Below are positions 24,258-63,983 of a DNA stretch of 64,000 nt, one piece after another; position 1 is the stretch's first letter; the number at the start of each line of letters is the position of its first letter. Under the pieces are notes generated by a model. The model had not been told where the DNA came from. It saw nothing but the letters and a program-made list of their open reading frames with translations, and made no database searches. The translations under genes were made by a program, and so were the position numbers. The stretch is from Pseudomonadota bacterium (GTDB taxonomy: Bacteria; Desulfobacterota; Binatia; Binatales; Binataceae), in NCBI GenBank assembly GCA_021325355.1, contig JAJPHI010000031.1:1-64000 (forward strand), written 5' to 3'.

Positions 24258-24258
24258 T

Positions 24259-46934: not shown

Positions 46935-47000
46935 CCCTTCGCGCGATCGCACAGCAGCTTCCGAACGAGCTTAAGATCCATCAGAGGAGAAACCACGATC

Positions 47001-47834: not shown

Positions 47835-47856
47835 AGCGCAGCCGGCGCCGACCGCT

Positions 47857-50064
47857 CTAGTCGAGCCGATCGGGCCGGAGCTTCAGGCGGCCCTGCCGCG
47901 CCGGCTTGGCCGTGCGCGGCCCCCGGGCGCCCACCGGACGCGGTGCGGCGTTCGCGCGCGTGCCGCCTGCGCTCGCCGCGCCAGCGGCTGCGGGCGCGCT
48001 CCCCGGCGGGGCGGCGGGCGGCGCCGGCGTCCGCTCGAGGCCGAAAACCTGCCGCTCGAGCCGCTTGATCCGATCCCGCAGCTCGGCCGCCCGCTCGTAA
48101 TCGAGCTTGTCCGCCGCCTCCATCATTCGCCGCCGCAGATTGCTGATATGATCCGGCAGCTCGTGCGCGGGCACCGATTCATCCTCCGCCGGCACTTTGG
48201 TCGGCGTATCAACTTCCGGCACCACCGCCCATTCCGGCGAATACATCTCGACCAGCGACGCATCGATCGCCTTGGTGATCGTCGTCGGCGTGATGCCGTG
48301 CTGCTCGTTGTAGGCAATCTGCTTGGCGCGCCGCCGCTCGGTCTCCTCGATCGCGTTCCGCATCGATCCGGTTACCGTGTCCGCATACATAATCACCTTG
48401 CCGCGCAGATTGCGCGCGGCGCGGCCAATCGTCTGGATCAGCGAGCGGGCGTTGCGCAGGTACCCTTCCTTGTCGGCGTCGAGGATCGCCACCAGTGATA
48501 CTTCCGGAATATCCAGTCCCTCGCGCAGCAGATTGATCCCGACCAGCACGTCGAACTCGCCCTTGCGCAGGCTGCGGATTATCTCGACCCGCTCGATCGT
48601 CTCGATATCCGAATGCATATAGCGAACGCGCACGCCCAGATCGTGATAATAGTCAGTCAGATCCTCGGCCATCTTCTTGGTCAGACAGGTCGCGAGCACG
48701 CGTTCGCCCGCCGCCGCCCGCTTGCGGATCTCCTCCAGCAAATCATCGACCTGGGTGCCGGCCCGGCGCACCTCGATCTCCGGATCAATCAGACCGGTCG
48801 GCCGGATGAGCTGCTCGACCACCAGCCCGCCCGACTTCGCGAGTTCCCAGTCGCCCGGCGTCGCCGAGACATAGATCGCCTGGTTGACGAAGCCTTCCCA
48901 TTCCTCGAAGTTCAACGGCCGATTATCCAGCGCCGACGGCAGCCGGAAACCATACTCGACCAGCGTGCTCTTGCGCGATCGGTCGCCCCGATACATCCCG
49001 CCCAACTGCGGAATCGTCACGTGGCTCTCGTCGATGAAGCACAGATAATCCTTGGGAAAATACTCGAGCAGCGTCGGCGGCGGCTGCCCCGGCGCGCGAC
49101 CCGTCAGATGACGCGAGTAGTTTTCGATTCCCGGACAGAAACCCATCTCCGCCAGCAGCTCCAAGTCGTACAGCGTGCGCTGCTCGAGCCGCTGCGCCTC
49201 GAGCAGCCGATTCTCGCGGCGAAAGAACTCGAGCCGCTCCTTCAATTCCTCCCGGATATTGCGCACCGCCGTCGCCATCCGCTCCGACGTCGTCACATAG
49301 TGCGACGCCGGATAGATCGCCACCGCCTGCAGCTTGCGGATCACCCGGCCGCGCAGCGGATCGATCTCGCTCAGCGCCTCCACCTGGTCGCCGAAAAATT
49401 CGATCCTGACCGCGCGGCTCTCTTCATACGCCGGAAACACCTCGACCGTGTCCCCGCGCACGCGAAATGTCCCGCGATGGAAATCATAGTCATTGCGCTG
49501 ATACTGAATCTCGATGAGCTTGCGCAGGACGCGATCGCGTTCGATCGTCTGCCCCTCCTCGAGAAACACCAGCATCTCGAAATATACTTCCGGCTCGCCC
49601 AGCCCGTAGATGCACGAAACCGATGCGACGATTACCACGTCGTTGCGCTCGAGCAGTGCCTTGGTCGCCGAATGCCGCAGTTTGTCGATTTCGTCGTTGA
49701 TGCTCGCGTCCTTCTCGATATACAGATCGGTCGAGGGTACGTACGCCTCCGGCTGATAGTAATCGTAGTACGACACGAAGTAGCGGACCGCGTTCTCCGG
49801 AAATAGACTCTTGAACTCGTTGTAAAGCTGCGCCGCCAGCGTCTTGTTCGGTGCCAGCACCAGCGTCGGCCGGTTCACCTGCGCGATCACGTTCGCCATG
49901 GTGAAGGTCTTGCCCGATCCCGTCACCCCCAGCAGCACCTGATGCTTCACGCCGTCGCGCACGTTCTGCGCGAGCGCCGCGATCGCCGCCGGCTGATCAC
50001 CCTCCGGCCGATAGCCCGAGACCAGCTTGAACACCCCTTCGCGACTGCGCGCCAACGGCAGCAT
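47857..50064 (-). CDS. uvrB: Excinuclease ABC subunit B
   Basis: DNA damage-verifying helicase-like subunit, 735 residues. [14 protein letters not shown] is Walker [13 protein letters not shown] forms the beta-hairpin that probes [14 protein letters not shown] is the DEAH-type Walker B, and the C-terminal helicase motifs run through GRAARN. The UVR motif [20 protein letters not shown] near residue 655 pairs with UvrC. Some 60 residues of Ala/Pro/Arg-rich low-complexity sequence follow the UVR motif, beyond the normal end of the family. Divergent from the ABC export operon. Confidence 0.96.
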
Positions 50065-50365
50065 CCCTCGATAGTAGCACCGTGGCGCCGGCCGACGCGA
50101 CGGCGCCGGCGCGCCGCCACGAGCCCTGAAGCGTGCCGACGGCCAGCCAACGGTCGCGCCGTCCCGCCCTCCGCCGCGCGAAATTAACCGTCGCGTAACC
50201 CCTCCCGCACGCCGCGCCGCGTCCGCCGCCCACTTCTTATATTGACACTGGCCCTTGCCGTCGCTTTATTAGTCCGTTGTTTGAGCGCCTGAATTTGTCG
50301 CGATTCCGCAACGTCCTATTTTTTAGCCGAAGGACCAGGAGGAAGGTGGGCGCGGCTGCGCAGCC
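50065..50365. other. 301-bp divergent intergenic region, uvrB / ABC operon
   Basis: No gene seen. The half near uvrB is extremely GC-rich with inverted repeats. The half near the ABC operon is AT-richer and holds the candidate promoter at 50242-50270, a GGAGGAAGG SD around 50339-50346 and a 12-bp palindrome directly before the start codon. Confidence 0.5.
50242..50270 (+). promoter_or_regulatory. Candidate promoter of the ABC export operon
   Basis: TTGACA (50242-50247, 6/6), a 17-bp spacer and TTTATT (50265-50270, 4/6), about 95 nt before the ATPase start codon, in an AT-rich stretch. Good sigma70-type geometry; untested. Confidence 0.5.
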
Positions 50366-51139
50366 ATGATCGAGGTCAGAGACCTTACCAAAAGCTACGG
50401 CAATTTCGTCGCGGTCAAAGGCATTTCCTTCAAGGCTGAGAGCGGCCAGATTCTCGGCTTTCTCGGACCCAACGGTGCCGGTAAAACCACCACGATGCGC
50501 ATTATTACCGGCTTTATGCCCGCCACCTCCGGCACCGTCATCATCGACGGTCTCGATATCTTCGCCAACTCGCTCGAAGCCCGCCGCCTCATCGGCTACC
50601 TCCCGGAAACCCCGCCGCTCTATTCCGATATGCGCGTCGACGCCTACCTGCGCTTCGTCGCCCGACTGCGCGGCGTCCGCCGCAACGAAGTCGCCGACGC
50701 CGTCGCTCACGTGCTCGAAGTCTGCGGCCTCACGGAGATGGCCCATCGGATTTGCGGCCAGCTCTCGAAGGGTTATCGCCAGCGCGTCGGCCTCGCCCAG
50801 GCGCTGATTCACAATCCGCCCGTGATGATCCTCGACGAGCCGACCATCGGGCTTGACCCGCGGCAGATCCATGAAATCCGCGAGCTCATCCGCAGCTTCG
50901 CCGGCGACCGCACGATCGTGCTGTCCACCCACATCTTGCCCGAAGTCTCGCAGATCTGCGATCGCGTGGTGATTATCAACGACGGCCGTATCGCCCTCGA
51001 AGAACAACTGTCCGATATCCCCGCCGGCACCACCCTCGAAGAGGTCTTCCTCGCCGCCATCGCCCGCGAGGATCACGCCGCCGATACCGCCCCCGAAGAG
51101 ATGCTCGAAGAAGTCGGCGCCGGCCATTCCGAAGCCTGA
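50366..51139 (+). CDS. ABC transporter ATP-binding protein, GldA-like
   Basis: 257-residue ATPase of an ABC-2 type transporter. Walker A GPNGAGKTTTMR, Q-loop region GYLPETPPLYSDM, signature LSKGYRQRVGLAQAL, Walker B VMILDEPTIGLDP, and switch His in STHILPE. The tail after residue 235 is acidic. Together with the permease and GldG-like protein it matches the GldAFG arrangement, named for gliding motility in Bacteroidetes but widespread in non-gliders. The SD lies unusually far (about 20 nt) from the ATG, with a GGCTGCGCAGCC palindrome (50354-50365) between them. Confidence 0.9.
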   Translation: MIEVRDLTKSYGNFVAVKGISFKAESGQILGFLGPNGAGKTTTMRIITGFMPATSGTVIIDGLDIFANSLEARRLIGYLPETPPLYSDMRVDAYLRFVARLRGVRRNEVADAVAHVLEVCGLTEMAHRICGQLSKGYRQRVGLAQALIHNPPVMILDEPTIGLDPRQIHEIRELIRSFAGDRTIVLSTHILPEVSQICDRVVIINDGRIALEEQLSDIPAGTTLEEVFLAAIAREDHAADTAPEEMLEEVGAGHSEA

Positions 51140-51143
51140 AACC

Positions 51144-51917
51144 ATGCGCAACACCCTCACCATCGCCGCCAAGGAGCTCCAGGGCTATTTCGTCCAGCCC
51201 GTCGCCTACGTCGTGCTCACCGTCTTCCTCCTGCTCGGCGGATGGTTCTTCTTCGCGATGCTCCGGCAGTTCGACGAGATGATCCAGATCATCCAGATGA
51301 TGGGGCAGGCGTCCGAGCTCCAGCAGATGAACCTCAACGCCCGCGTCATCGATCCGCTCCTCCACGACCTTTCGATCGTGCTCGTCATCGTAATGCCGGC
51401 GCTGACCATGCGCGTCTTCGCCGAGGAAAAACGCACCGGCACCTACGAACTGCTGCTCACCGCGCCCATCCGCACCGGCGAAGTGGTCGCCGGTAAATTC
51501 ATCGCCGCCGCCACCTTCACCCTCATCATGGTCGCCGCCGCCTGGATCTTCCCTGTCATCCTGATGATCTTCGGCAACCCCGAAGTCGGCGTGATGTTTG
51601 CCGGCTATCTCGCCCTCGCCCTCCTGGCCCTGACCTTCGTCGCGGTCGGCCTCTTCACCAGTTCGCTCACGCAGAACCAGATTATCGCCGCCATCAGCTC
51701 CTTCGGCCTGCTCATCCTCCTCTACGTTATCTCGTGGCCGGCCGAAGCCGGCGGTGGCACCATCTGGTCGATCCTCGGTTATCTCTCGCTGCCCGAACAT
51801 TTTTCGACCATGGTCCGCGGCGTCATCGATACCAAGGACATCGTCTTCTTCCTCAGCGCGATCCTGCTTGCGCTGTTCCTCACGCAACGCTCAGTCGAGT
51901 CCGCCCGTTGGCGCTAG
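51144..51917 (+). CDS. ABC-2 type permease, GldF-like
   Basis: 257 residues with six hydrophobic helices, beginning MRNTLTIAAKELQGYFVQPVAYV. It has the family feature FAEEKRTGTYELLLTAPIRTGEVVAGKF in segments, typical of ABC-2 permeases that sit with GldG-like proteins. It begins 4 nt after the ATPase stop. Function would be export or membrane-linked energy coupling for an unknown substrate. Confidence 0.88.
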   Translation: MRNTLTIAAKELQGYFVQPVAYVVLTVFLLLGGWFFFAMLRQFDEMIQIIQMMGQASELQQMNLNARVIDPLLHDLSIVLVIVMPALTMRVFAEEKRTGTYELLLTAPIRTGEVVAGKFIAAATFTLIMVAAAWIFPVILMIFGNPEVGVMFAGYLALALLALTFVAVGLFTSSLTQNQIIAAISSFGLLILLYVISWPAEAGGGTIWSILGYLSLPEHFSTMVRGVIDTKDIVFFLSAILLALFLTQRSVESARWR

Positions 51918-51976
51918 ATGGTCGCGCGGCGTCGTTTTCACCCAGGCACCTTGGCAAAGGCAGGTAGAGTTATCCG

Positions 51977-53551
51977 ATGAGGCGTTCATCGGCATTGACC
52001 GGCATCCTCGGCCTCGTACTCCTGATCTTCGGGCTCATCGGCTATGCCCTGACCAGCGGCGGCTTTGCCCGCCTGTACATTTTCGTCAACCTCATCGTCG
52101 GCGGCTTTGCCGTCATCGGCTGGCTCGCCGCGAGCTGGAGCGATCTCGGCTCTATCGCCGGTCAGCGCCGCACGCGCTACGGCGCCAATGCCGCGGTCTA
52201 CTCGGTCGGTTTCGTCCTGCTCCTCGTCGCCGCCAACTTCCTCGCCTCGCGCTACCATCGTCAATTCGATCTCACGGCGCAAAAGGTCTTCAGCCTCTCA
52301 CCGCAATCCGTCACCGTCGTCAAACAGTTGAAGAAGCCGCTCAAGCTTTACGGCTTCGTGCAAGGCGGCCACAGTCCCACTGCCGAATCACTCTACCAGC
52401 AGTATGCCTACGCCTCCCCGCTGATTACCTATGAGCTGGTCGATCCCAACAAGCATCCCGAGCTCGCCGAGCGCTTCAAAGTCACCACCATGGATACCAC
52501 GCACTTGCAGTACGGCGGCGATACCGGCTCCGGCAGCAACGTCACCGACCTCAATGAAGGCGCCATCACCAACGGCATCATGAAACTGATCAAGTCGGGC
52601 AGCGGCCAGACCGCCTGCTTCGCTATCGGCGAGGGCGAGGCCGACCCCGACGAAGCCCTGCAGCCCGGTGGCTTCAACGAATTTCAGAAGGGCCTCGAGG
52701 GCGAGAACTTCCAGGTTAAAAAAGTCGTTCTCGTCTCCGAGCCCAAGGTGCCCGACGACTGCGCCATCCTTATTCTCGCCGGACCGACCCGCCCCCTGGT
52801 GCCCCATGAGCTCGACGCCATCACGCAATATCTTGACGGCGGCGGGCGGATGCTCGCGATGCTGCGGCCGCAGCGCCCCGATAAAGCTTACGACGAAACC
52901 GCCCTCGTCAACCTGCTCGGCGACTGGGGCGTCAAGGTCGGCAATAACGTGGTCGTCGATCAGGTGGTGCGCCTGTTCGCCGGCCCCGCCCTCGGTCTCG
53001 ACCCGACCGTCAATATGTACCCCACTCACGAAATCACCTACGGCTTCAACAAGCAGACGGTCTTTCCGATGGTGCGCACGGTCGATCCGATCGATCCCCC
53101 CAAACCGGGCCTCGACGTCACTTCACTCGCCAAAACCTCCGATACCTCGTGGGCCGAAACCGATCTGAATTCCCTCTTCAACAAGCAGACCGCCCACTTC
53201 GACGCCGCCACCGATACCAAGGGCCCGGTCAGCGTCGCCGTCGCCGTTGAGGCCAATCTCGACCAGCTCAAACGCGGCAAAGGCACCGCCCGGATGGTCG
53301 TCTTCGGCGATACCGATATCGCCGACAATCAGTACATCGACAACTTCTTCAACCGCGACTTTCTCATGAACAGCGTCGATTGGCTCGCCGGCCAAACCAA
53401 TTCCATCACCATTCGCCCCAAGTCGCTCCGCGCTTCGCGGTTCAACCTGACCATCCAGCAGTTCGATATCGTCTTTGTCCTCTCGGTCCTGCTGATTCCC
53501 GAACTGCTGCTGCTCACCGGCCTCGCCGTCTGGTGGCAACGGCGCAACTAG
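51977..53551 (+). CDS. GldG-family ABC-type auxiliary protein
   Basis: 524 residues. Three N-terminal helices (about 5-25, 32-52, 74-93), then a large extracytoplasmic domain, then one C-terminal helix (about 496-518). The extracytoplasmic domain opens QFDLTAQKVFSLSPQSVTVVKQLKKPL, typical of the GldG/uncharacterised ABC-type family. VFGDTDIADNQYIDNFFNRDFLMNSVDWL marks its end. 59 nt after the permease gene. It is expected to work with the two preceding proteins; what is transported is unknown in most bacteria. Confidence 0.87.
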   Translation: MRRSSALTGILGLVLLIFGLIGYALTSGGFARLYIFVNLIVGGFAVIGWLAASWSDLGSIAGQRRTRYGANAAVYSVGFVLLLVAANFLASRYHRQFDLTAQKVFSLSPQSVTVVKQLKKPLKLYGFVQGGHSPTAESLYQQYAYASPLITYELVDPNKHPELAERFKVTTMDTTHLQYGGDTGSGSNVTDLNEGAITNGIMKLIKSGSGQTACFAIGEGEADPDEALQPGGFNEFQKGLEGENFQVKKVVLVSEPKVPDDCAILILAGPTRPLVPHELDAITQYLDGGGRMLAMLRPQRPDKAYDETALVNLLGDWGVKVGNNVVVDQVVRLFAGPALGLDPTVNMYPTHEITYGFNKQTVFPMVRTVDPIDPPKPGLDVTSLAKTSDTSWAETDLNSLFNKQTAHFDAATDTKGPVSVAVAVEANLDQLKRGKGTARMVVFGDTDIADNQYIDNFFNRDFLMNSVDWLAGQTNSITIRPKSLRASRFNLTIQQFDIVFVLSVLLIPELLLLTGLAVWWQRRN

Positions 53552-53573
53552 TCAATCGCGCGCATCGCTCGTC

Positions 53574-55055
53574 ATGTCTCTGCGCAATACGCTCGTCGTC
53601 TTCATCCTGCTGATCATCGTCGGCGGCTATGCGCTCTACCTCAACCATCAGCCGCCCCCCGAGGCCAATCCCAAGGTCTATCACCTCGACGCCAAGGACA
53701 TTCGTTCCATCGAGCTCAAGTCGCCCGATCGCGATATCGTCGTCGAGCGCGCCGGCGCCGGCAAATGGAACATCACCAAACCCGTCAACGCGCCCGCTGA
53801 CAGCGGCACCGTCGATTCCATCGCCAACCAGATCGCGAGCCTCGAAATCACCGGCACCGCCGATGAACATCCGACCGACCTCGCGCCCTTCGGCCTCGCC
53901 GTCCCCGCCGTCACCGTGACCGTTGTCACCACCGACGGCAAAACCCTTCCCTCGATCATGGTCGGCAGGCAGGCGCCCATCGGCAACGCCGGTTTCATCA
54001 AGGTGGCCGATAAGCCCGCGGTCGTGATGGTCGCGCCGTCGTTCGCCGCCGATGTCAATCGTCATGTCAACGACCTGCGCTCGCGGAGCCTCTTCCCCGC
54101 GCTCAACCCGCTCGACGCCGATCGCATCGTGATGCGCCGCGCGACCGGCACCCTCGAACTCACCCGCACCAACGACAAGTGGATGATCACTCGGCCGACC
54201 AGCTATCCCGCGGATAACGAAGCCGTCCTGCGCCTGCTGCGCCTCCTCGACAACGTCCGCCTGACCGATTTCGTCGATGACGCCAAGCCCGACCTTGGCA
54301 AGTACGGCCTCGCCAACCCCTCGCTGGCGATTACGCTCTATGCGCCGGATCACAAGGACGGCCAGACGCTCGCCTTCGGCTATGTCGATCCCAAGGTCGG
54401 CAGCAACGCCGTCTACTCGCGCACCGGCACCGCTCCCGATGATCCCGTCTATACCGTCACCAAGGATGTCTTCGCGTCGGCCGACGTCGGTTATGACGAT
54501 CTCCGCGACAAGACCGTCGTGCGCTTCGATCCATCCAAAGTCAGTCGCGTGACGCTCACCGGCGCCGGCCTCGATGAAACCGTCGAGCGCCATGGCAAAA
54601 ATCAATGGCTCGTCACCGCCGACGGCAAGAGCGCGCCCGCCGAACAGCCCGTCGTCCAGAGCCTGCTCGATCAACTGCACACCCTCACCGCCAAGGCGAT
54701 CGTCGAAGATAACCTGACCGATCCCCAACGCTACGGGATGGTCACGCCGGCGATTACCATCGCGATGTTCGACGACGGCGGCAAATCGCTCGGCGTCGTG
54801 CGCGCCTCGCTGCTCGAAATCACCACCAAACCGCAGAGCTCCGACGAAAAGGTCGAGACGCGCCATCAGGCCTACGCCACCACCAGTCTCGACTCCGACG
54901 TCTATCAGATCGAGCCGCAAGCCGTGCAGGATCTGCGCAACACCGCCGACCGCCTCCACAGTGACGCGGTGCCGACGCCAACGCCGTCACCCACGAGCTC
55001 ACCCACCGCGCATCCGTCCGCGTCTCCCGCCGCGTCGCCGGTCGCGCCGCATTAA
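53574..55055 (+). CDS. DUF4340 family exported protein
   Basis: 493 residues with a single N-terminal membrane anchor (about 6-21, LVVFILLIIVGGYALYL). Repeated beta-rich modules follow, with recurring W-x-I/V-T-x-P segments (GKWNITKPV, DKWMITRPTSYPAD, NQWLVTADGK), as in DUF4340. A Thr/Pro/Ser/Ala tail of about 25 residues ends the protein. DUF4340 genes commonly follow gldG-type genes, and here the gap is 22 nt. Function unknown; extracytoplasmic partner of the GldG-like protein is inferred. Confidence 0.85.
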   Translation: MSLRNTLVVFILLIIVGGYALYLNHQPPPEANPKVYHLDAKDIRSIELKSPDRDIVVERAGAGKWNITKPVNAPADSGTVDSIANQIASLEITGTADEHPTDLAPFGLAVPAVTVTVVTTDGKTLPSIMVGRQAPIGNAGFIKVADKPAVVMVAPSFAADVNRHVNDLRSRSLFPALNPLDADRIVMRRATGTLELTRTNDKWMITRPTSYPADNEAVLRLLRLLDNVRLTDFVDDAKPDLGKYGLANPSLAITLYAPDHKDGQTLAFGYVDPKVGSNAVYSRTGTAPDDPVYTVTKDVFASADVGYDDLRDKTVVRFDPSKVSRVTLTGAGLDETVERHGKNQWLVTADGKSAPAEQPVVQSLLDQLHTLTAKAIVEDNLTDPQRYGMVTPAITIAMFDDGGKSLGVVRASLLEITTKPQSSDEKVETRHQAYATTSLDSDVYQIEPQAVQDLRNTADRLHSDAVPTPTPSPTSSPTAHPSASPAASPVAPH

Positions 55056-55153
55056 CGGCCGCCGCACCTCCACCCCCGATCTTCGCGATTCTTGTGCTCG
55101 ACCGCGAAATGCGCGAAGCTCCTCACAGCTAGCCATGAAGTCGAGGAGACACC

Positions 55154-56350
55154 ATGAGTTACACCATCATCGATGTTGATACGCACGTAACCGAAACGCC
55201 CGATCTGTGGACAAGCCGCGCTCCCGCTAATATCCGCGATAAGGTGCCCCGCACGATCACCGACGAGCATGGCACCGTCCGCTGGGTGCTCGGCGACAGC
55301 AACAGTCTGCTCGCCAGCGCCGGCATGACCGCCACCGCCGGCCGCGGCAGCTTCGCCAAACCGCCGAAAACCTACGAAGAGATGCATCCCGGCGCCTACG
55401 ATGCCAAGGCCCGCCTCAAGTACATGGACGAGATGGGCATCTGGGCGATGGTCATGTATCCCAACGTCGGCGGCTTCGGCGCGCAGCAGTTCCTGAAACT
55501 CAACGACCCCGATCTCATGATCAAGTGCGTCCAGATCTACAACGACTGGCAAACCGAATGGGCCTCCGCCGACTCGCGCCGCCTCATCCCGATCACCTCG
55601 ATCCCCTTCTGGGACGTCAACCAGGCCGTTAAGGAAATTCGCCGATGCGAGAAAATGGGCCATCGCGGCATCCTCTTTACCGGTGAGCCGCAGTATTACG
55701 GCCTGCCGCTCCTTGGCGATAAGCACTGGAACCCGCTGTGGGAGGTCGCCTGCGAACTCGACCTGCCGCTCAGCTTCCATATCGGCTCGGGCGACATGAC
55801 CGAGGGTCTGCTCAAGCAGAAGATGGAAATCTACGGCAAGATGGCTTCGTTCACCGAGCTCGCCGTCGAGATCTTCCTGCGCAACGGCCTGCAGTTGAAT
55901 GACCTCTTGTTCTCCGGCGTCCTCGCCCGCTTCCCCACTATAAAGTTCGTCTCCGTCGAAAGCGGCATCGGCTGGATTCCCTTTATGCTCGAGGCCGCCG
56001 ACTACCAGTACAAAGGCAACAGCGTCGCCAAGCTCCAGCCCGAGTTCGGCGATATGCTGCCCTCCGAATACTTCGCCCGCAACGTCTACGCCTGCTACTG
56101 GTTCGAGCAGATCGCCCCGCGCCGCCTCATCGACAAAATCGGCGCCGACAATATCCTCTTCGAAACCGATTTCCCCCATCCGACTTCGCTCTACGGCGAG
56201 GAGGTCTTTGCCCGGATCAAAGGCGGCCTCGAGGATTGCGAAGAGTCGGTCCGCCGCAAGATCCTCTGGGACAACGGCCAGAAGCTCTACAAGGTCGCGC
56301 CGCCCACTGCCGCGGACGAAAAGCGCCAGGCGGCCGCCCTCGCCAACTAG
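55154..56350 (+). CDS. Amidohydrolase family protein (amidohydrolase_2), paralogue of 31894
   Basis: 398 residues. The N-terminal IIDVDTHVTETPDLW corresponds to the metal-binding start of the PF04909 barrel. DEMGIWAMVMYPNVGG, ELDLPLSFHIGSGD, FPTIKFVSVESGIGWIPF and FETDFPHPTSLYG follow in the order seen in the 31.9-kb amidohydrolase, though overall identity is low. GAGGAG lies upstream of ATG 55154. The conserved Asp in the last block is the likely catalytic/metal residue. Substrate unknown. Confidence 0.88.
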   Translation: MSYTIIDVDTHVTETPDLWTSRAPANIRDKVPRTITDEHGTVRWVLGDSNSLLASAGMTATAGRGSFAKPPKTYEEMHPGAYDAKARLKYMDEMGIWAMVMYPNVGGFGAQQFLKLNDPDLMIKCVQIYNDWQTEWASADSRRLIPITSIPFWDVNQAVKEIRRCEKMGHRGILFTGEPQYYGLPLLGDKHWNPLWEVACELDLPLSFHIGSGDMTEGLLKQKMEIYGKMASFTELAVEIFLRNGLQLNDLLFSGVLARFPTIKFVSVESGIGWIPFMLEAADYQYKGNSVAKLQPEFGDMLPSEYFARNVYACYWFEQIAPRRLIDKIGADNILFETDFPHPTSLYGEEVFARIKGGLEDCEESVRRKILWDNGQKLYKVAPPTAADEKRQAAALAN

Positions 56351-56380
56351 CCGCTTCGTCCGACTGACGTAATCTCAACG

Positions 56381-56408
56381 CGGCCCTCTCCCCGAGCGGA
56401 GAGGGCCG
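56381..56408 (+). terminator. Hairpin terminator after the amidohydrolase gene
   Basis: CGGCCCTCTCC (56381-56391) and GGAGAGGGCCG (56398-56408) form a perfect 11-bp stem with a 6-nt loop; downstream sequence CCGTTCTTCG is only weakly T-rich. Confidence 0.6.
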
Positions 56409-56486
56409 CCGTTCTTCGCCATCCTTCACCAACGATCCCGTGCCCGACCGCCCAACTTCGCCCATGCCGATTATCCGCGACGCCGC

Positions 56487-56492
56487 TATAAT
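56487..56492 (+). promoter_or_regulatory. polA: Perfect -10 element immediately before polA
   Basis: TATAAT (56487-56492) ends 8 nt before the polA ATG at 56501, so transcription would begin at or next to the A of the start codon. No Shine-Dalgarno sequence is visible and no good -35 hexamer was found at 16-18 bp. A leaderless polA mRNA is a reasonable inference. Confidence 0.4.
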
Positions 56493-56500
56493 CACTCTCG

Positions 56501-59095
56501 ATGGCTGAAGCGCGCCGCACGCTCTACCTCGTCGATGGCTCGGGCTATGTCTTCCGCGCCTTCTTCGCGCTCCCGCAACTGAACAACTCGCGCGGGATGC
56601 CCACCAATGCCGTCTACGGCTTCATCCGGATGCTCATGAAGCTGCTGAAGGACGCCCGCCCCACCCATATCGCGGTCGTCTTCGACGCCCCCACCAAAAC
56701 CTTCCGCGACGACCTCTTCCAGGACTACAAGGCCAACCGCGTCGAGACCCCCAACGATCTCGTGCGCCAGATCCCCTACATTCATCGCGCCGTCGACGCC
56801 TTCAAAATCCCCCGCCTCGTCATCGACGGCTACGAGGCCGACGACGTTATCGGCACCCTTGCCGTCAAAGGCGCGCGCGACAGCTTCGATACCGTCATCG
56901 TCACCGGCGACAAGGATTTCATGCAGTTGGTCGGTCCCCATATCACCCTGTGGGATACGATGAAGGACGAGCGCGTCGCCGCCCGCCAGGTCAAGGAAAA
57001 ACTCGGCGTCGATCCCGCTCTCGTCATCGATCTCATGGCGCTCACCGGCGACGCCATCGACAACATCCGCGGCATTCCCGGTGTCGGCGAAAAGAAGGCA
57101 AGCGCGTTGATTCAGCATTTCGGCTCGCTCGAAAAGGTCTTCGCCAATCTCGATCGTCTGCGCGAAGTCCCCGGCATCGGCCCGAAACTCGTCGCCGCAA
57201 TCAGCGCTCATCGTGCCGACGCCGAGCTCGCGCGCAAGCTCGTGACCATCGCGACCGACGCCCCCCTGCAACTGCAACCCGACGACTTCGCCTGGTCCGG
57301 CGCCGATCACGACGCGCTCATCGCCCTGATGCGTGAACTCGAGTTCGGGAGCCTCGTCGCCGAACTCGCTCCCGCAACCGTCGCAGCCCCTCCCGCAGCC
57401 GAAATCACCGAAGTCCGCATCGATGAGCAGCGCCTCCCCGCGCTCCTCGACGACTTGCGCGCCGCCGATCGCCTGAGCCTTCACCTCGGCGGCGACGCCG
57501 CCGGCGCCATCGTCCTGAAGCTAAAGGCCGCCGGCCGTCCCGCCCTCTACACCCTCGCCCGCGATCTCCTTCCGCGCGCGCGCGAACTGCTCGCCGCCCC
57601 CCGGCCCGCCAAAGCCTGCCACGACGTCAAACGCCACCTCAACCTCCTGCGCCGCTACGGCGTCGCGCTCGACGGCGTCCAGTTCGACACGATGCTTGCC
57701 GGCTTCCTGATCAATCCCGGCAAGCCCGAACCCGCGCTCGACGACCTCTACCACGAGCACCTCGCCCCGCTCGGCGGACCCGCCGCCCCCGGCGCCGAAC
57801 CGCTCGCCGTCGAAGCCCTCTGGGATACCCTCGCCACCGCCCTGGATCGCAATCAGCTCGTGCGCCAGTTCAGCGAAATCGAACTGCCCGTCGCCAAAGT
57901 CCTCGCCGAGATGGAAGCCACCGGCATCGGTATCGACGCCTCCGCCTTAAAGCAGATGTCCGCCGAGTTCGGCCGCGAGCTCGCCCAGCTCGAAAGCGAA
58001 TGCTTCCGGCTCGCCGGCCGCGAGTTCAACCTCAACTCGCCCCTGCAATTACGCGACATCCTCTTCAATGACCTGAAACTGCCGACCAAGGGTCTCAAGA
58101 AAACCAAGAGCGGCTTCTCCACCGATGCCGACGCGCTCGAGAAACTCGCCGCCGCCCATCCCTTGCCGCGCAAACTCCTCGAATACCGCGCCCTCGCCAA
58201 ACTCAAATCCACCTACTGCGACGCCCTCCCCGAGCTGATCGATCCCGCCACCGGCCGGCTCCATACGTCGTTCCACCAGGCCCTCACCGCCACCGGCCGC
58301 CTGAGCTCCACCGAACCCAACCTCCAGAACATCCCGACCCGCACCGAAGAGGGACGGCGCATCCGCCGCGCCTTCGTCGCCGACCCCGGCCGCATCCTGA
58401 TCTCGGCCGACTACTCGCAGATCGAATTGCGCGTTCTCGCCCATCTCTCCGATGACCCCACCCTGGTCGAGGCGTTCGCCCGCGGCGAGGATATCCACGC
58501 GCGCACCGCCGCCGACGTCCTCGGCGCCGCCAAAGACGACCGCGAGGCCCGCCGCCTCGCCAAGGTCATCAATTTCGGCATCATCTATGGTATGGGACCA
58601 CAGCGGCTCGCCGCCGAGCTCGAAATTCCGCTCGCCGAAGCCCAGGCCTATATCAAACGTTATTTTGAACGCATGCCCGGAGTTAAATCCTACTTCGACC
58701 AGACCCTCCGCGACGCCCGCGAACGCGGCTACGTCACCACGATGTTCGGGCGCCGCCGCTACCTCCCGGAACTCAACGGGCCCGACGGCGGCGCCCGCGC
58801 CCAGGCCGAGCGCATTGCCATCAATACCCCCATCCAGGGCACTGCCGCCGACCTGATCAAACTCGCGATGGTCCGTCTGGCCGCGATGCTTTCGGCCGCC
58901 TCGATTCGCGCTAAAATGGTCCTGCAGGTCCACGACGAGCTGTTGATCGAGGCCGACCGCGACGCCGCTGCCGCCGCCGCTACCGCGATTCGGAGCGCGA
59001 TGGAGGACGTCGCTCAACTTAAGGTGCCGCTGATGGTCGATCTTAAGGCCGGTTCCAATTGGGCCGAGATGCTCCCCCTTACCCCGACCGCTTGA
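56501..59095 (+). CDS. polA: DNA polymerase I, proofreading residues absent
   Basis: 864 residues. The 5'-3' exonuclease domain (about 1-295) has YLVDGSGYVFRAFFALP, FDAPTKTFRDDLF, GYEADDVIGTLA and GVGEKKASALI. The middle domain occupies the 3'-5' exonuclease position, but the DxE motif (FDTET in E. coli) is replaced by LSLHLGG and the later Asp region by DVKRHLN, so proofreading should be absent. The polymerase domain (about 480-864) is intact: DYSQIELRVLAHLS near residue 637, the KVINFGIIYGMG finger helix, and VHDELLIE near 810. Used for Okazaki fragment and repair synthesis. Confidence 0.95.
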   Translation: MAEARRTLYLVDGSGYVFRAFFALPQLNNSRGMPTNAVYGFIRMLMKLLKDARPTHIAVVFDAPTKTFRDDLFQDYKANRVETPNDLVRQIPYIHRAVDAFKIPRLVIDGYEADDVIGTLAVKGARDSFDTVIVTGDKDFMQLVGPHITLWDTMKDERVAARQVKEKLGVDPALVIDLMALTGDAIDNIRGIPGVGEKKASALIQHFGSLEKVFANLDRLREVPGIGPKLVAAISAHRADAELARKLVTIATDAPLQLQPDDFAWSGADHDALIALMRELEFGSLVAELAPATVAAPPAAEITEVRIDEQRLPALLDDLRAADRLSLHLGGDAAGAIVLKLKAAGRPALYTLARDLLPRARELLAAPRPAKACHDVKRHLNLLRRYGVALDGVQFDTMLAGFLINPGKPEPALDDLYHEHLAPLGGPAAPGAEPLAVEALWDTLATALDRNQLVRQFSEIELPVAKVLAEMEATGIGIDASALKQMSAEFGRELAQLESECFRLAGREFNLNSPLQLRDILFNDLKLPTKGLKKTKSGFSTDADALEKLAAAHPLPRKLLEYRALAKLKSTYCDALPELIDPATGRLHTSFHQALTATGRLSSTEPNLQNIPTRTEEGRRIRRAFVADPGRILISADYSQIELRVLAHLSDDPTLVEAFARGEDIHARTAADVLGAAKDDREARRLAKVINFGIIYGMGPQRLAAELEIPLAEAQAYIKRYFERMPGVKSYFDQTLRDARERGYVTTMFGRRRYLPELNGPDGGARAQAERIAINTPIQGTAADLIKLAMVRLAAMLSAASIRAKMVLQVHDELLIEADRDAAAAAATAIRSAMEDVAQLKVPLMVDLKAGSNWAEMLPLTPTA

Positions 59096-59175
59096 ACCCT
59101 CGTGCGCCCCTTTTGCCCACCTTCCCGACCCCGCCCCGAGGCTGAATTTCCTTTCATCGCCTCCGTCTAACCCAT

Positions 59176-59754
59176 TTGAGTAAACCAGCGCGCCCAGTGG
59201 CCGACGAGACCGAGCTCATCCAACGGGCGAGCAGCGGTGACGCGCAAGCCTTCGGCACGCTGGTCGAGCGCTATCAGCGGCGAGTGATCGGCGTCGCCAT
59301 GGCCGTCGTCCACAACCCCGATGATGCCCTCGAACTGGCTCAGGAAACGTTCGTCCGCGCCTATGAGAATCTGTCCAAATTCGAATCCCGCTCGAGCTTC
59401 TCGACCTGGCTCTATCGCATCGCCGCCAATCTCGCGATCGATTTCCGCCGCCGTGAAGGCCGCTACACTGTCCTGCGCGGCGAGGAAGGCGAAAATGAGC
59501 TCTCCCGCCTGCCCAGCGAGGCCCGCAACTCCTTCGAGGAACATGCCCGCGGCGAACTCAATGCCCATCTGCGCCGCGCTCTCGATGAGTTGACGCCGGA
59601 GCATCGTGCGGTGATACTTCTGCGAGAAGTGGAAGGCCTCTCCTACGACGAAATCAGCGAGGTGCTCCGATGTCCCCGTGGCACCGTGATGAGTCGTCTC
59701 CATTATGCGCGCAACCGCCTCCGCGCGCTGCTTAAGGACCTCGAATCGGATTGA
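59176..59754 (+). CDS. ECF-type RNA polymerase sigma factor
   Basis: 192 residues. Region 2 has AFGTLVERYQRRVIGVAMAVV, DALELAQETFVRAYENLSKF and SFSTWLYRIAANLAIDFRRR. Region 4 has LDELTPEHRAVILLREVEGLSYDEISEVL and GTVMSRLHYARNRLR. No regions 1 or 3, so it is an ECF (RpoE-like) sigma. Starts TTG at 59176; GTG at 59200 would also keep region 2 intact. The partner anti-sigma gene starts 4 nt downstream. Likely responds to an envelope or redox signal. Confidence 0.92.
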   Translation: MSKPARPVADETELIQRASSGDAQAFGTLVERYQRRVIGVAMAVVHNPDDALELAQETFVRAYENLSKFESRSSFSTWLYRIAANLAIDFRRREGRYTVLRGEEGENELSRLPSEARNSFEEHARGELNAHLRRALDELTPEHRAVILLREVEGLSYDEISEVLRCPRGTVMSRLHYARNRLRALLKDLESD

Positions 59755-59758
59755 GCCT

Positions 59759-60406
59759 ATGGTTTCCTGTAGCGAGATTCAGCTTCTCCTCGGCCCCTTC
59801 GACGATGGCGAGCTCGAACCGCACGAAATGCAGGACGTCGCCCTGCATATCGTCACCTGTCGCGACTGTAATGCCGCCCTCGAAGACTACCGCGCCCTCG
59901 GCGTCGCCCTCCGCAATACCGTCCGCCCGCCCGCCGTCGATCTCACCCCCGCGGTGCTTGCCCGCCTCGAGGCGATGCCGCGGCCATGGCGCCATCGCGT
60001 CCGCGCCTTCATCGAGTCCTTCGGCCGCATCGGCACCGCCATCGAGGTCGTCAGCCTCGCCGCCGTTACCGCCGTCCTGACCGTGGTAATCGCCAATCCC
60101 GCCGTCCAGAAACTGGTCAAGGGCCCCACCCACGACTCGCCGCCGCTCCTCACCTCCTCCCTCCCGCGGCCGGTCGCGCCGATCGCCTTTGCGCGAACCT
60201 CCTCCCCGGCCCGGCGGATGACCCCGGCGGTCGCCAGCTCAACCCCCGTCAATCAGTTCGCCGCGACCGAACCGCCCGAGGTCCAGAGCGCCAGCGCGAT
60301 GCAGGATCTCGCCGCCGAACTCGGCGCCGGCGATAGTCAATCGGTCGCCGTCTGGAACGAACCCAATACCCATACCACCGTCGTCTGGGTGCCCGATCAG
60401 CCCTGA
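59759..60406 (+). CDS. Zinc-finger (ZAS) anti-sigma factor
   Basis: 215 residues. The N-terminal cytoplasmic domain has the zinc anti-sigma motif H30-x3-C34-x2-C37, within LHIVTCRDCNAAL. One membrane helix follows (about 95-116), then an extracytoplasmic Pro/Ser/Thr-rich part. It would hold the adjacent ECF sigma inactive until a signal. ATG 59759 is 4 nt after the sigma stop; an in-frame ATG at 59705 lies within the sigma gene and lacks family similarity. Confidence 0.85.
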   Translation: MVSCSEIQLLLGPFDDGELEPHEMQDVALHIVTCRDCNAALEDYRALGVALRNTVRPPAVDLTPAVLARLEAMPRPWRHRVRAFIESFGRIGTAIEVVSLAAVTAVLTVVIANPAVQKLVKGPTHDSPPLLTSSLPRPVAPIAFARTSSPARRMTPAVASSTPVNQFAATEPPEVQSASAMQDLAAELGAGDSQSVAVWNEPNTHTTVVWVPDQP

Positions 60407-60409
60407 CCT

Positions 60410-61012
60410 ATGCGTCGCTTCAAAGGGCTTGTGATGCTGCCGCTCTGGATCGCGGCGATCTCGGTCGGTATCGTCTACGCCGCCTCCGACGCCGGCCGCG
60501 ATCAGCCCATCAAAATCCAGGTCGAATCGATTCAGGCCCGCTATGCCGATACCAGCGCCGTCGCCCTGCGCCGCTCCGTGCCCGTCCGGATGGATCCGCG
60601 GCTCAACCAGAGCGGCCTCTCCGATCGCCTCCGCCTGATGTTTGACTACTCCGAGTACCAGCTCGTCCGCCGCCAGAGCGCCAACTCCACCTGCGGCGGC
60701 GCCGTCGCCTTCAACCTCCCCGGCGGCCATATCCTGCACGTCGCGCCGCTCGCCGTCGAGGACAACGAACTCGCGATGGACCTCGCGATGTTCGAGGGCG
60801 ACCGCATGATCATGCGCCTGCCCTTTCGCCTGTCGGCCGGCGGGATGCTGATGCTGGTCGATCAGCACGCGCCCAACCGTTTTTACATCACCGCCATCTC
60901 CGCCGAGGGCCCGCAACTCCGTCCACAGGCAAGTGTCGTCCCCGTTCCGCAGATGCCCGCCATTCCCCCGGTCGAGCCCATCCCGCTCCCCGCCTTCATC
61001 CAGCCCTGGTAA
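60410..61012 (+). CDS. Exported protein of the sigma/anti-sigma operon, function unknown
   Basis: 200 residues. An N-terminal signal peptide or anchor (MRRFKGLVMLPLWIAAISVGIVYA) is followed by a single globular domain (SDRLRLMFDYSEYQLVRRQS, NLPGGHILHVAPLAVEDNELAMDL in parts, RFYITAISA) and a Pro-rich tail after about residue 175. Starts 3 nt after the anti-sigma stop, so it is cotranscribed. It may be a sensor-side partner or periplasmic effector of the regulon. I do not recognise the family. Confidence 0.8.
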   Translation: MRRFKGLVMLPLWIAAISVGIVYAASDAGRDQPIKIQVESIQARYADTSAVALRRSVPVRMDPRLNQSGLSDRLRLMFDYSEYQLVRRQSANSTCGGAVAFNLPGGHILHVAPLAVEDNELAMDLAMFEGDRMIMRLPFRLSAGGMLMLVDQHAPNRFYITAISAEGPQLRPQASVVPVPQMPAIPPVEPIPLPAFIQPW

Positions 61013-61544
61013 CCCCCACCCGTCCCGCCTCCGCTCCTCCTCCCGCAGCTTCCTTAGCCGGTCGTCAGCCCCGGCCTTCCCCTCCTTCCATTGCCAGCGC
61101 CGATGCGAAACTGACCCGGGTCGCCGATTGAAAACTGACCCACTTCGGCGTGGGATACTCCAAAGCGGAGGTCCTCATGCTGGTGGCGGAGGAAGCAGTG
61201 GAGATCTGGGTTTTGAGTCGTCAAGGGCAGGGCATCCGCAAGCTCGCGCGCATTCGATTCAAAGAAAAAGGAAAATACGGTGAGAGATGCCACCGTCGCT
61301 GAAATCCCGTCCGACGCACCGCTCCTTACTCGGGCGGCTACAGCATCCTGAAGGATGTCTCGCGACGCTACGACCGGGGCTTTGTTCCAGTTTTTCAACA
61401 ACCTGCGTTCGAATGCCGCGGTCAAGGTCAAAATCAAAATGGTGCGGATCCGGCCGGTCTCCCGCCACGATAACCGCCCAACATAATCAACGGCCACGCA
61501 TCGGTTGCGGCCTCGCTAATCGCTCCATTCACCGCTCGCTATCC
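61013..61544. other. 532-bp non-coding stretch containing a transposon relic
   Basis: No intact gene. 61013-61106 is C-rich with no features. 61107-61302 holds IS21-type end repeats and the start of an istA gene. 61324-61400 contains a second transposase fragment in a different frame. The rest to 61544 is unassigned and of lower GC than the neighbours. Confidence 0.6.
61107..61400 (+). pseudogene. Relic of an IS21-family transposase (istA) with terminal repeats
   Basis: A 41-codon frame (ATG 61177 to TGA 61302) begins MLVAEEAVEIWVLSRQGQGI, matching the N-terminal helix-turn-helix of IS21 IstA, then diverges. From about 61324 another frame reads PYSGGYSILKD and, shortly after, FVPVFQQP, which resemble internal IstA segments. 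So the gene has suffered deletion and frameshift. Upstream, AAACTGACCC occurs at 61108-61117 and 61132-61141 (24-bp period), like the repeated ends of IS21 elements. No IstB remains. Non-functional. Confidence 0.6.
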
Positions 61545-62312
61545 TCATCGCGGAGCCATCCGTAACGCCCCGTCGAGCCGAATCGTCTCGCCGTTCAGCA
61601 TCGCATTCTCCACGATATGACGCGCCAGCGCCGCGAACTCCTCCGGATGGCCCAAACGCGACGGAAACGGAATCTGCGCCCCCAGCGCCTTGCGCGCCGG
61701 CTCCGGCAGCGTCGCCAGCATCGGCGTGTCGAACGTCCCCGGCGCGATCGTGCACACGCGAATCCCTGACGACGCGAGGTCGCGGGCGATCGGTAACGTC
61801 ATCCCGACCACGCCGCCCTTCGACGCCGAATAGGCCGCCTGACCAATCTGCCCGTCGAAGGCGGCAATCGACGCCGTATTGATAATCACCCCGCGCTCGC
61901 CGTCGGCGTTCGGCGCATTCTTCGCCATCTGCGCCGCCGCCAGCCGAATCACGTTGAAGGTCCCTACCAGGTTGACCTGGATCACCCGGTTGAACAGTTC
62001 GAGCGAATGCGGCCCGTCCTTCCCAATCGTGCGCTGCGCCCGACCAATCCCCGCGCAGTTGACCGCGATATGCACCGCGCCGAACCGCGCGACCGTCTGC
62101 GCAATCGCGCTCTCCGTTTCGGTCCCCGAAACCACGTCGGCCGGCGTAAAGAGCCCGTTGCCGCCGAAGCTCTCCGCCAGTTGCGGACCCGGTGAATTCG
62201 GCAGGTCGATAATCGCCACCCGCGCCCCCGCCGCCGCGAATTCCCGCGCGGTCGCCCCGCCTAATCCCGATCCGCCACCGGTGATCACCGCAACCGCGTC
62301 CTTCAGTTTCAT
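61545..62312 (-). CDS. SDR family 3-hydroxyacyl-CoA dehydrogenase-like (HSD17B10 type)
   Basis: 255 residues. [12 protein letters not shown] binds NAD, the NCAGIG core follows, and Ser in [25 protein letters not shown] with Tyr/Lys gives the catalytic set. The long insert [22 protein letters not shown] (read in parts) and [10 protein letters not shown] are typical of the type 2 3-hydroxyacyl-CoA dehydrogenases. It would act in fatty-acyl or branched acyl-CoA oxidation. ATG 62312 follows GAGG; an in-frame start at 62393 overlaps acpS and adds unrelated residues. Confidence 0.9.
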
Positions 62313-62379
62313 GATGCCCTCGATCGCTGGTTTTTGAAGAATTGTGCTGTCTGGCGCGCGCGCCGTAAAGCCGCCGCGG

Positions 62380-62769
62380 CTAGCCTTCGGCAATCACGTG
62401 CGCGATCGCCATCGTCGCCGTATGGGTCAGGCTCACCTGCAGGCGCGCAATCCCGCGCCCCGCGGCGAACTCCGCCGCCTTGCCGTGCAGACGAATCAGC
62501 GGCGGCCGGCCCCGCTCCCGCGCCACTTCGATCTCCTGCCATCCCGCATGCCGATTCCAGCCGGTGCCAAGCGCCTTCATCGCCGCCTCCTTGGCGGCAA
62601 ACCGCGCCGCGTAGCTCTGGTAACGCGCGCGCCCGCGTCCTTCGCAATAAGCCCTTTCGCCAGCGGTGAAGACGCGCCGCCGAAACCGCTCGCCCGTAAT
62701 CGGGTTGCCGAGCGCTCGCGCGATCCGCTCGACTTCGATTATGTCAATCCCCGTACCGACAATCGCCAT
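62380..62769 (-). CDS. acpS: Holo-[acyl-carrier-protein] synthase AcpS
   Basis: Transfers 4'-phosphopantetheine from CoA to acyl carrier protein. 129 residues. [14 protein letters not shown] carries the Mg-binding Asp; [29 protein letters not shown] and [15 protein letters not shown] are the further family signatures (Glu-Lys of the KEA motif, His of SLTH). ATG 62769 gives the canonical start; the longer frame from 62808 lacks homology. Precedes the SDR gene by 67 nt on the same strand. Confidence 0.94.
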
Positions 62770-62988
62770 GATCTGCTGCGATGACCTGCTGCCGTGACCT
62801 GCCGCCATGACCTGCGCTCGCTCGGCGACCCGCCTGTTGCTTTGCCTGCCGCCTCGCCGGCCGACTCTCGCCGGTCCTCCGCGAAGCGCCGCACGACCAT
62901 AGCAATCCCGCCGCCCGCGCGTAAGCCCTGAGGCTTGCGAGCCCGACGCTCCGGCCCTATTGTGCCTTTCGCGAGGTTTGAAAACCCG

Positions 62989-63222
62989 ATGGCCAAGCTC
63001 AAGACCACCGTTAACAAAGCCAAATGTATCGCCAGCGAAGACTGTATGCAGACGGCGCCCGGCGTCTTCCAGATGGGCGACGATGACAAGGCCGAGGTTT
63101 ACAATCAGACGGGCGCCCCCGACAACGTCATTCTGGCCGCGGCGCGCGCCTGCCCGGCCAAGGCGATCACCGTAATCGACGAGGAAACCGGCGCTCAGCT
63201 CGTCCCCGCACCGAAGAAATGA
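62989..63222 (+). CDS. Small ferredoxin with three cluster cysteines ([3Fe-4S] type)
   Basis: 77 residues. The cysteines are C13-x5-C19 and C55-P, i.e. the usual second ligand is missing (A15/S16 in its place), as in single-cluster [3Fe-4S] ferredoxins that serve cytochrome P450 systems. APGVFQMGDDDKAEVY and AARACPAKAITV are standard for that group. No P450 gene is in the window. ATG 62989 with a purine-rich GAGG about 14 nt upstream. The soluble electron carrier's partner is unknown. Confidence 0.88.
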   Translation: MAKLKTTVNKAKCIASEDCMQTAPGVFQMGDDDKAEVYNQTGAPDNVILAAARACPAKAITVIDEETGAQLVPAPKK

Positions 63223-63321
63223 TCTTTTCAGTCAACCCACCCGCCACGCCGCAGTCGCGACGTTTTGTCAAGTAGCGATGACAGCCACCGATGTAAAAAC
63301 TTGTCAATAACCAGAAATTCC

Positions 63322-63330
63322 TGTGGATAT
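63322..63330. promoter_or_regulatory. DnaA-box-like nonamer
   Basis: TGTGGATAT is 8/9 identical to the reverse complement of the DnaA box TTATCCACA. It lies 25 bp before the first parS site. A single one-mismatch box is weak evidence alone. Confidence 0.2.
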
Positions 63331-63354
63331 CTCGTCCCCGCCGCACCCGTGTAA

Positions 63355-63370
63355 TGTTTCACGTGAAACC
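63355..63370. promoter_or_regulatory. parS site 1 (ParB-binding palindrome)
   Basis: TGTTTCACGTGAAACC matches the conserved bacterial parS 16-mer at 15 of 16 positions. ParB loads at such sites to segregate the origin region. Its 19-bp separation from a second copy makes chance unlikely. Confidence 0.88.
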
Positions 63371-63389
63371 TCGGCGCCCGGCCTTTCGA

Positions 63390-63405
63390 TGTTTCACGTG
63401 AAACA
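63390..63405. promoter_or_regulatory. parS site 2 (perfect ParB-binding palindrome)
   Basis: TGTTTCACGTGAAACA is identical to the consensus parS palindrome. It starts 35 bp after the start of site 1 and ends on the A of an ATG (63405), just ahead of the acetyltransferase gene. Confidence 0.92.
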
Positions 63406-63452
63406 TGTATCGTCCGGTTTACAGTGACTATCTTGTCTCACGCGGCGGACCA

Positions 63453-63983
63453 ATGACTACTGACTCGTCGCGATCATTTCCCCGCGCGCGCGTTAAAAAG
63501 GTCCGCGAGCGCGCCGCCCCCGATGCCATCAGCCTCGCGCAAACGCACAACGCAGCGCGCATCAGGCCGCTGCTCGAAGCTGCCGGCTTCCTGACCGTCG
63601 GCCTCGACCATCCCGGCATTTGCGTCATCGCCGCGACTCGCAACGCCGAAGTCATTGGCGTCGTCGCCGTCGAGACGATCGTCGATTGCGCGCTGATGCG
63701 ATCGCTCTTCGTCACGCCATCGATGCGCCGGCGTGGAATCGGCACCCGCCTTGTTGCGGCGGCGCGCGCGGCCGCGGTAACCCGCGGCGCCCGCACCCTC
63801 TATACCTTGGCCGACGCTGCAGCCGCACCGTTTCTCGCCCGGTGCGGTTTCGGCGCCGCCGATTATCGCGCAGCACTCGACGAACTCAGCGGATGCCCTC
63901 TGGCGGACTATCTTCAAACGCATCGCGGGCCGGCGCTCGCCTGGAAGCTCGACGTCTCGGCCGACGGCATCATCAACCGTTGA
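63453..63983 (+). CDS. GNAT family N-acetyltransferase, ArsN2-like
   Basis: 176 residues of the acetyl-CoA-dependent GNAT fold. ALMRSLFVTPSMRRRGIGTRLVAAA holds the beta4 strand and the R-x-x-G-I-G pyrophosphate loop. ARTLYTLADAAAAPFLARCGF and the C-terminal LSGCPLADY region resemble ArsN2-type acetyltransferases, but no arsenic genes are adjacent, so the substrate is uncertain. About 30 basic residues precede the domain. ATG 63405 is in frame but sits on parS site 2; ATG 63453 is preferred although its SD is weak. Confidence 0.78.
   Translation: MTTDSSRSFPRARVKKVRERAAPDAISLAQTHNAARIRPLLEAAGFLTVGLDHPGICVIAATRNAEVIGVVAVETIVDCALMRSLFVTPSMRRRGIGTRLVAAARAAAVTRGARTLYTLADAAAAPFLARCGFGAADYRAALDELSGCPLADYLQTHRGPALAWKLDVSADGIINR

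Follow-up and report, generated by a model that had tools for sequence, protein, structure and literature searches.

A pair of parS sites in an intergenic gap

The window, that is the whole stretch of DNA analysed (64,000 nucleotides), comprises the initial 64 kb of contig C1 (107,673 bp) in a draft genome of 35 unordered contigs (3,357,406 bp, 95.3% complete, contamination estimate 0.05). The PolA of this source genome was closest to those of the MAGs L018 (Candidatus Binataceae, 68%) and L014 (Deltaproteobacteria, 67%), Candidatus Binatus soli following at 61%, and the genome probably belongs to the Binataceae. Near the right end of the window, a ferredoxin-like gene (62989..63222, + strand, Pfam Fer4_13) and a GNAT acetyltransferase gene (63453..63983, + strand, Pfam Acetyltransf_1) were separated by a gap of 230 bp (63223..63452), which contained a pair of parS sites and a composite element. 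The window was searched with TGTTTCACGTGAAACA, allowing up to three mismatches, and only two matches were found. parS site 1 (TGTTTCACGTGAAACC, 63355-63370, + strand) carried one mismatch at its outermost (last) base, and parS site 2 (63390-63405, + strand) was an exact 16-bp palindrome. The starts of the two sites were 35 bp apart, and the pair agreed with the 16-bp palindromic parS consensus. By chance 0.07 matches were expected in the window, and two matches were obtained in 0 of 100 shuffles. A sequence-only reading of this DNA had described two parS sites, one of consensus sequence and one with a single terminal mismatch, in a gene-free gap; the mismatch search confirmed the sites, and the gap proved to be the 230 bp between the ferredoxin-like and GNAT genes. 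The likeliest start of the acetyltransferase gene was 63453, with an alternative in-frame ATG at 63405, the final base of parS site 2. An effect of ParB on this neighbouring gene is possible. Regulation of the acetyltransferase as the main role of the pair was thought unlikely; the orientation of the neighbouring genes varied among parS loci.

parS sites are dispersed over the source genome

We found that the 14-bp core of parS, GTTTCACGTGAAAC, occurred at 24 sites in the genome and was invariant in all of them, while the backward control of the core gave 0 matches. Eleven of the sites were exact 16-mers, nine had one change and four had two, in the outer bases only. Nine sites were clustered at C19:3737-7268 around rsmG/gidB, parA, and parB, the genes and sites together occupying C19:3.7-7.3 kb, with dnaA at C19:34.8 kb. 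The remaining fifteen fell into 12 scattered loci on eight contigs: C1 (the window pair), C6, C14 (two loci), C19 at 175 kb, C20 (a pair at 107 kb and single sites at 265 and 407 kb), C25 (two loci), C26, and C32 (a pair). All 15 scattered sites were intergenic according to a custom crude gene caller, which called 79% of the 1.19 Mb of sampled DNA coding. One of them, at C14:187420-187435 (L119:9921), was located about 250 bp upstream of smc (C14:187689). The genome carries cognate ParA and ParB as well as an SMC gene; its sole ParB_N match was on C19, and the nearest solved chains to this protein were ParB/Spo0J.

As the sequence-only reading had expected, the genome has parB and dnaA; both were on C19. 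Its placement of the window in the origin-proximal centromere region, a view that it held to be incompatible with many copies spread evenly over the chromosome, was not supported. The parS loci were dispersed over eight contigs, and parA, parB, rsmG/gidB, and the nine clustered parS were located on another contig, C19, in an assembly whose contigs are unordered. Proximity to oriC/parAB was true of the nine C19 sites; the window pair and the 13 others were not beside parAB.

GC skew switches polarity at parS loci

Raw GC skew was determined in flanks that extended to 9 kb at most and were shorter where a contig or stretch ended (left flanks of 1.4 kb in L117 and 3.7 kb in L118 and L121), and was negative on the left and positive on the right at 13 of 13 parS loci. 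The skew at the window parS was origin-like in this respect, as the sequence-only reading would have it, and the minus-to-plus switch expected of an oriC was present at the parS loci generally. At fourfold-degenerate sites, skew was higher on the right than on the left at 13/13 loci and on both gene strands, with a strict change of sign at 11 of the 13 (the exceptions being L126 and L128). Pooled fourfold skew was -0.15 (genes on -) and -0.35 (genes on +) on the left, and +0.32 (genes on -) and +0.17 (genes on +) on the right. When sites were separated by gene strand, codon family, and next base (at least 60 sites per side), right exceeded left in 61/61 codon contexts. Since all of these contexts concurred, the switch was not caused by gene direction or by one polar motif. 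Moreover, every switch at a parS locus ran minus-to-plus, and we infer that random inversions, which would yield both polarities, do not explain the switches.

The left arm of the switch at the window locus spanned 1..63370; fourfold skew there was about -0.16 at first and deepened on the approach to parS, reaching -0.59 near 60 kb. Past the window, at 66-82 kb of C1, it was +0.34 to +0.44. Cumulative skew over C1:1-81999 reached its minimum at 64,417, which is about 1 kb away from parS. Among the 11 other scattered loci, examined in stretches of 16-20 kb, 10 had their minimum within 4.1 kb of parS; L126 had a weak switch, with its minimum 8.2 kb from parS. On C19, the skew switch coincided with the parS cluster, not with dnaA. 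Averaged over loci, skew peaked 10-20 kb from parS (-0.39 and +0.46, a distance covered by the fetched stretches of few loci); by 40-50 kb it had dropped to about 0.05, and at 70-100 kb it was about 0.1.

The size of the switch was further measured as the jump between 9-kb windows, the C19 parS cluster being left out for its closeness to the contig end. Jumps ranged from 0.131 to 0.847 at 12/12 scattered loci, with L119 at 0.51. Control jumps at 95 positions more than 20 kb from any parS had a mean of -0.024, an S.D. of 0.070, and a maximum of 0.117, in 9-kb windows that overlap and are not independent. The controls included parS-free contigs, of which 20 of 27 were sampled, the longer ones in part (several stretches of C17, 277 kb, C12, 187 kb, C7, and C3); skew on them was mostly weak (-0.31 to +0.25 in 5-kb bins). 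On contig C20, fourfold skew formed a sawtooth. It was -0.29 (72-84 kb) and +0.32 (120-132 kb) flanking the 107-kb site, near zero over 168-228 kb, and -0.26 (240 kb) and +0.10 (288 kb) flanking the 265-kb site. Ahead of the 407-kb site it was -0.23 (384 kb), and the switch there was weak, skew being negative at both 432 kb (-0.19) and 456 kb (-0.49). The strong negative value at C20:456-468 kb (-0.49) was located at the contig end, with no parS rightward on the contig; an additional switch may lie past the C20 end at 479 kb.

A composite element accompanies most scattered parS

Alignment of the scattered loci revealed a composite of parS, a TCC(A/C)CAGG box, and TTGAC in 11 of the 12. Box 1 (TCC[A/C]CAGGAA-like) was located +23 to +29 from the parS core and TTGAC +81 to +87; a second box near +48 to +50 was clear in four loci (L123, L124, L125, and L128). 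In the window, box 1 is a putative DnaA-box-like sequence (TATCCACAGGAA, 63318..63329, - strand) separated by 26 nt from the parS site 1 core, and contains TATCCACA at 63322-63329. The position of box 2, assigned by alignment, holds a degenerate sequence and a poor box at this locus (TTATTGACAAGTTT, 63297..63310, - strand). The CTTGACA element (63266..63272, - strand) follows 47 nt past the CACAGGA of box 1. CACAGGA-N38..58-TTGAC had nine matches in the genome, seven of them at parS loci, where the spacer was 47 nt in 7/7; it was 45 and 56 nt in the other two (C4 and C14). No -10 element at the customary spacing was seen by eye in the aligned copies, and TTGAC was rejected as a -35 promoter element.

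The box resembled a DnaA box, and L128 had two perfect TTATCCACA. One or two box-like sequences were found per locus, not the cluster of three or more expected at an oriC, and no boxes were found at L119. TATCCACA was not enriched in the genome (33 occurrences versus 38 for the backward control; 5 of the 33 inside composite elements), and it was absent from C19:1-40 kb. Mean AT content at the loci was 0.62 versus 0.55 in 284 control gaps, 21% of which reached 0.62. Comparison of the window element with plasmid and phage records gave short weak matches only (6 and 1 records respectively).

A stand-alone DnaA-C-domain protein was considered as a cofactor and rejected as incidental. Its gene in the source genome was flanked by a Mor-like gene (just below the Pfam cut-off) and a CI/S24-type repressor gene, and was on account of these neighbours treated as a prophage gene. 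A small DnaA-domain-IV protein was seen amid phage-like genes in L013 (C20:476 kb). A second, non-dnaA DnaA-C match was found in g1 (2/2 genomes), g6 (1/1), g7 (4/4), g13 (2/3), and G009 (1/2 of g9), and in none of the genomes of g15 (0/4) and g10 (0/2).

The window junction in relatives

The junction of the ferredoxin and GNAT genes was compared in L014, L016, L017, and L019; the L018 stretch stops at the ferredoxin gene and was outside this comparison. The gap in these four relatives was about 8-55 bp between alignment ends, versus 230 bp in the window, and the exact parS core was absent from their stretches. Because all four had short gaps and no exact core, the window element was, judging from these alignments, probably gained in the source lineage. 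Skew at the junction was flat in L014, L016, and L019. In L017 it rose gradually across some 14 kb, from -0.37 to +0.28, and the junction itself showed no abrupt step. A core with one mismatch was present in L019 at 3089; it lay some 0.6-0.9 kb from the ferredoxin gene and junction and had no switch. Over 50366-63983 of the window, the transport-like genes, ferredoxin, and GNAT were reordered and reoriented relative to polA when compared to the same four relatives, a block order pointing to an inversion or rearrangement near the window locus.

parS and skew in other genomes

Of 57 genomes, 47 contained the parS core, the source genome among them. In addition to the 24 sites of the source genome, there were 10 in G001, a member of the same genus; further counts were 19 in G021, 16 in G023, 12 in G015, 11 in G026, 9 in G032, and 8 in G033, with 0-6 in other family members and 0-3 in other families. 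The possession of at least eight sites required five changes on a polA tree (30 genomes, quick method). Loss of SMC was rejected as the cause of relaxed parS placement, SMC matches being present in 34/34 genomes, 30 of them above the cut-off.

The sequences around parS were examined in these genomes. G021, which belongs to another genus, had the arms GGCGAAGAT-parS-ATCTTCGC followed by TTTGCCGTGAAA, and most G001 loci had a (T)CCACAAGTTTC-like sequence near parS together with TGTTTCACGCGAAACA variants. Dispersed homologous copies, as expected of REP/MITE-like mobile repeats, were observed, most strongly in G021 and G015. Homology between arms extended to 215 bp (81%) in G015 and to 236 bp (78%) in G021; the arms of the source genome were weaker (up to 103 bp at 72%). 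In L263-L280 (G015 and G026), parS was located inside dispersed repeats whose arms included TTAGTTCAGGAGAAC and GTGGTCGGAAATGGTGCTGT; some of these seem to occupy orthologous positions in the two genomes. Conserved positions of scattered parS among the source genome, G001, and G021 were sought in 20-kb comparisons of the parS-surrounding stretches (13 of 16 G021 loci), and none were found except a possible pair, L124/L150.

Raw skew was higher on the right than on the left at 10/13 loci of G021 (13 of 16 fetched) and, more weakly, at 7/7 loci of G001. Jumps in equal windows at scattered loci were upward at 10/12 in G021 (mean 0.31) and 5/6 in G001 (mean 0.20). The scattered parS of G015 and G026 were mostly without a switch (6/9 and 4/7 positive, means 0.06 and 0.02), two scattered loci of G015 reaching a jump of 0.2, whereas the parAB loci of both genomes had one. 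G030 showed mild switches at its parAB locus (-0.18/+0.14) and its single scattered locus (-0.11/+0.10). G013 and G014 had almost no skew, parAB included (raw skew only for G014). Since the scattered G015 and G026 copies mostly lacked a switch and G013/G014 had almost no skew, parS alone was insufficient for a switch; copy age or something else must matter beyond parS.

Comparison with known systems

Bacteria are held to begin replication at one origin per chromosome. Noc of the Firmicutes, with its dispersed NBS, provides ParB-family binding sites away from the origin. The scattered loci are likewise putative ParB-family sites away from the parAB cluster, but they are parS, not NBS, and no second ParB_N protein that could be a Noc paralogue was found in the source genome. 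As in chromosomal ParABS, the source genome has consensus parS, a canonical parA/parB pair, and nine sites clustered around parAB; unlike it, the genome has another fifteen sites, spread over 12 loci and eight contigs, and a skew switch accompanies each locus. The loci share with a bacterial DnaA-dependent oriC the switch from minus to plus and DnaA-box-like sequences, but number about 13 instead of one, with one or two boxes each and apparently no marked AT-rich stretch, and do not lie beside dnaA.

PMC5815017 cites a survey (Livny 2007) that placed parS almost exclusively near ori, and states that a second parS cluster in Caulobacter is not tolerated farther than about 500 kb from the native cluster. 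From skew, Xia 2012 (PMC3269012) and Gao 2015 (PMC4403523) proposed several origins for some bacteria, with a caveat of rearrangement, and Ori-Finder 2022 (PMC10225481) cites a natural single-chromosome Vibrio cholerae strain in which two oriCs are functional. The source genome resembles these in having several skew switches per chromosome, but its switches number about a dozen; all of them have parS, and a common composite element is present at most. Multi-origin archaeal chromosomes, as described in PMC3269012, also show several upward skew changes at start sites; the source genome differs in its bacterial host, in parS at every switch, and in its shorter skew range. In the literature searched, which included few subscription papers and no preprints, nothing tied dispersed parS to skew switches, and the search for Binatota and replication origin found no paper.

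Dispersed replication start sites as the preferred reading

The most economical account of a bulk minus-to-plus switch independent of gene strand would be fork departure in both directions. We favour, at a probability of about 0.5, regular or occasional initiation at parS loci, with DnaA or another initiator acting at the boxes and ParB tagging the start region. In this reading the 13 dispersed parS loci act as polarity switches, the window pair providing for ParB binding at one of them, and each locus would serve as an extra or alternative origin in a subset of rounds or cells. An initiator, plausibly DnaA, would bind the TCC(A/C)CAGG box or boxes, forks would depart both ways, and the parS tag would let ParB, ParA, and SMC capture the new start region. 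Long-term leading/lagging mutation bias would leave an excess of G on the right and of C on the left, fading over some 40 kb because the points at which forks meet, stall, or begin elsewhere vary. Coupling between ParB and the initiator is possible, because ParA of Bacillus subtilis regulates DnaA even with parS separated from oriC (PMC7614844).

Counting for start sites are the switch at 13/13 loci in raw and fourfold skew and in 61/61 codon contexts, the cumulative minimum close to parS on C1, jumps above all controls, a single polarity, the constrained spacing of the element, the C19 switch at the parS cluster, relatives that have neither the element nor a sharp switch at the junction, and the upward jumps at 10/12 loci of G021. 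Counting against them are the fading of skew within about 40-50 kb, faster than long forks would give, the mostly switch-free copies of G015 and G026, and G013/G014 without a switch even at parAB. Unenriched TATCCACA, unremarkable AT-richness, the jump at box-free L119, the weak L126, and the draft, unordered state of the assembly weigh on the same side. That about a dozen dispersed origins are compact elements of parS and initiator box, spreading as a repeat family and turning over between genera, is a tentative extension of this reading. If true, origin and centromere would travel together. parS-tagged, origin-like switches at a dozen places would provide a direct test of the single-origin and parS-near-ori rules, and a lineage with such switches would be a bacterial parallel to the multi-origin archaea.

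The polarity could instead be due to ParB itself. If dispersed parS served ParB and SMC only, as extra condensin-loading or Noc-like marking sites, skew would arise where forks pause and restart at ParB complexes, or through something travelling away from these complexes, and not from regular initiation. One ParB gene together with an SMC gene, a parS core invariant at 24/24 sites, the switch at L119 without boxes, and a skew range of tens of kb agree with such a role, but parS without a switch in G013 and at most G015 and G026 loci does not. To our knowledge, there is no route from ParB or SMC to a bulk strand-specific mutation bias, and we consider this explanation unlikely. Somewhat less probable again is a dispersed repeat with parS as a chance passenger and no chromosomal role, the coincidence with skew reflecting where copies insert or persist. 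A repeat of this kind would account for arms that are homologous within a genome (over up to 215 bp in G015 and 236 bp in G021) and different between genera, and for the G015 and G026 copies that mostly have no switch. It would leave unexplained why switches occurred at 13/13 loci of the source genome, centred near parS, why no jump of such size was found at 95 control positions, and why the spacing of box and TTGAC is rigid.

We also weighed whether a fragmented or chimeric MAG, rearrangement, or horizontal transfer made many false switches out of one ordinary origin. The genome is in 35 unordered contigs, and Xia (PMC3269012) and Gao (PMC4403523) warn of extra skew changes from rearrangement or transfer. 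Such an artefact is nevertheless very improbable, given three switches within contig C20 and two each within C14 and C25, a single polarity, core genes such as polA and smc on these contigs, the low contamination estimate (0.05), and a similar pattern in a second genus (G021).

parS on viral contigs

parS was also observed on viral contigs. In five of them (L313, L318, L324, L327, and L332), parS was located amid five TTATCCACA boxes within about 160 bp, and skew was negative on the left and positive on the right. Domain scans of one L313 gene and six L324 genes gave terminase, T7-like helicase-primase, lysozyme, and ArdC-N. The cluster of parS and boxes in this group may be a phage origin that borrows host ParB and DnaA. 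Nine further viral contigs (L315, L317, L319, L322, L325, L326, L328, L329, and L330) shared an extended palindrome, GCTACT-parS-AGTAGC, with conserved flanks, and would on this sequence likeness form a second group of parS-carrying phages.
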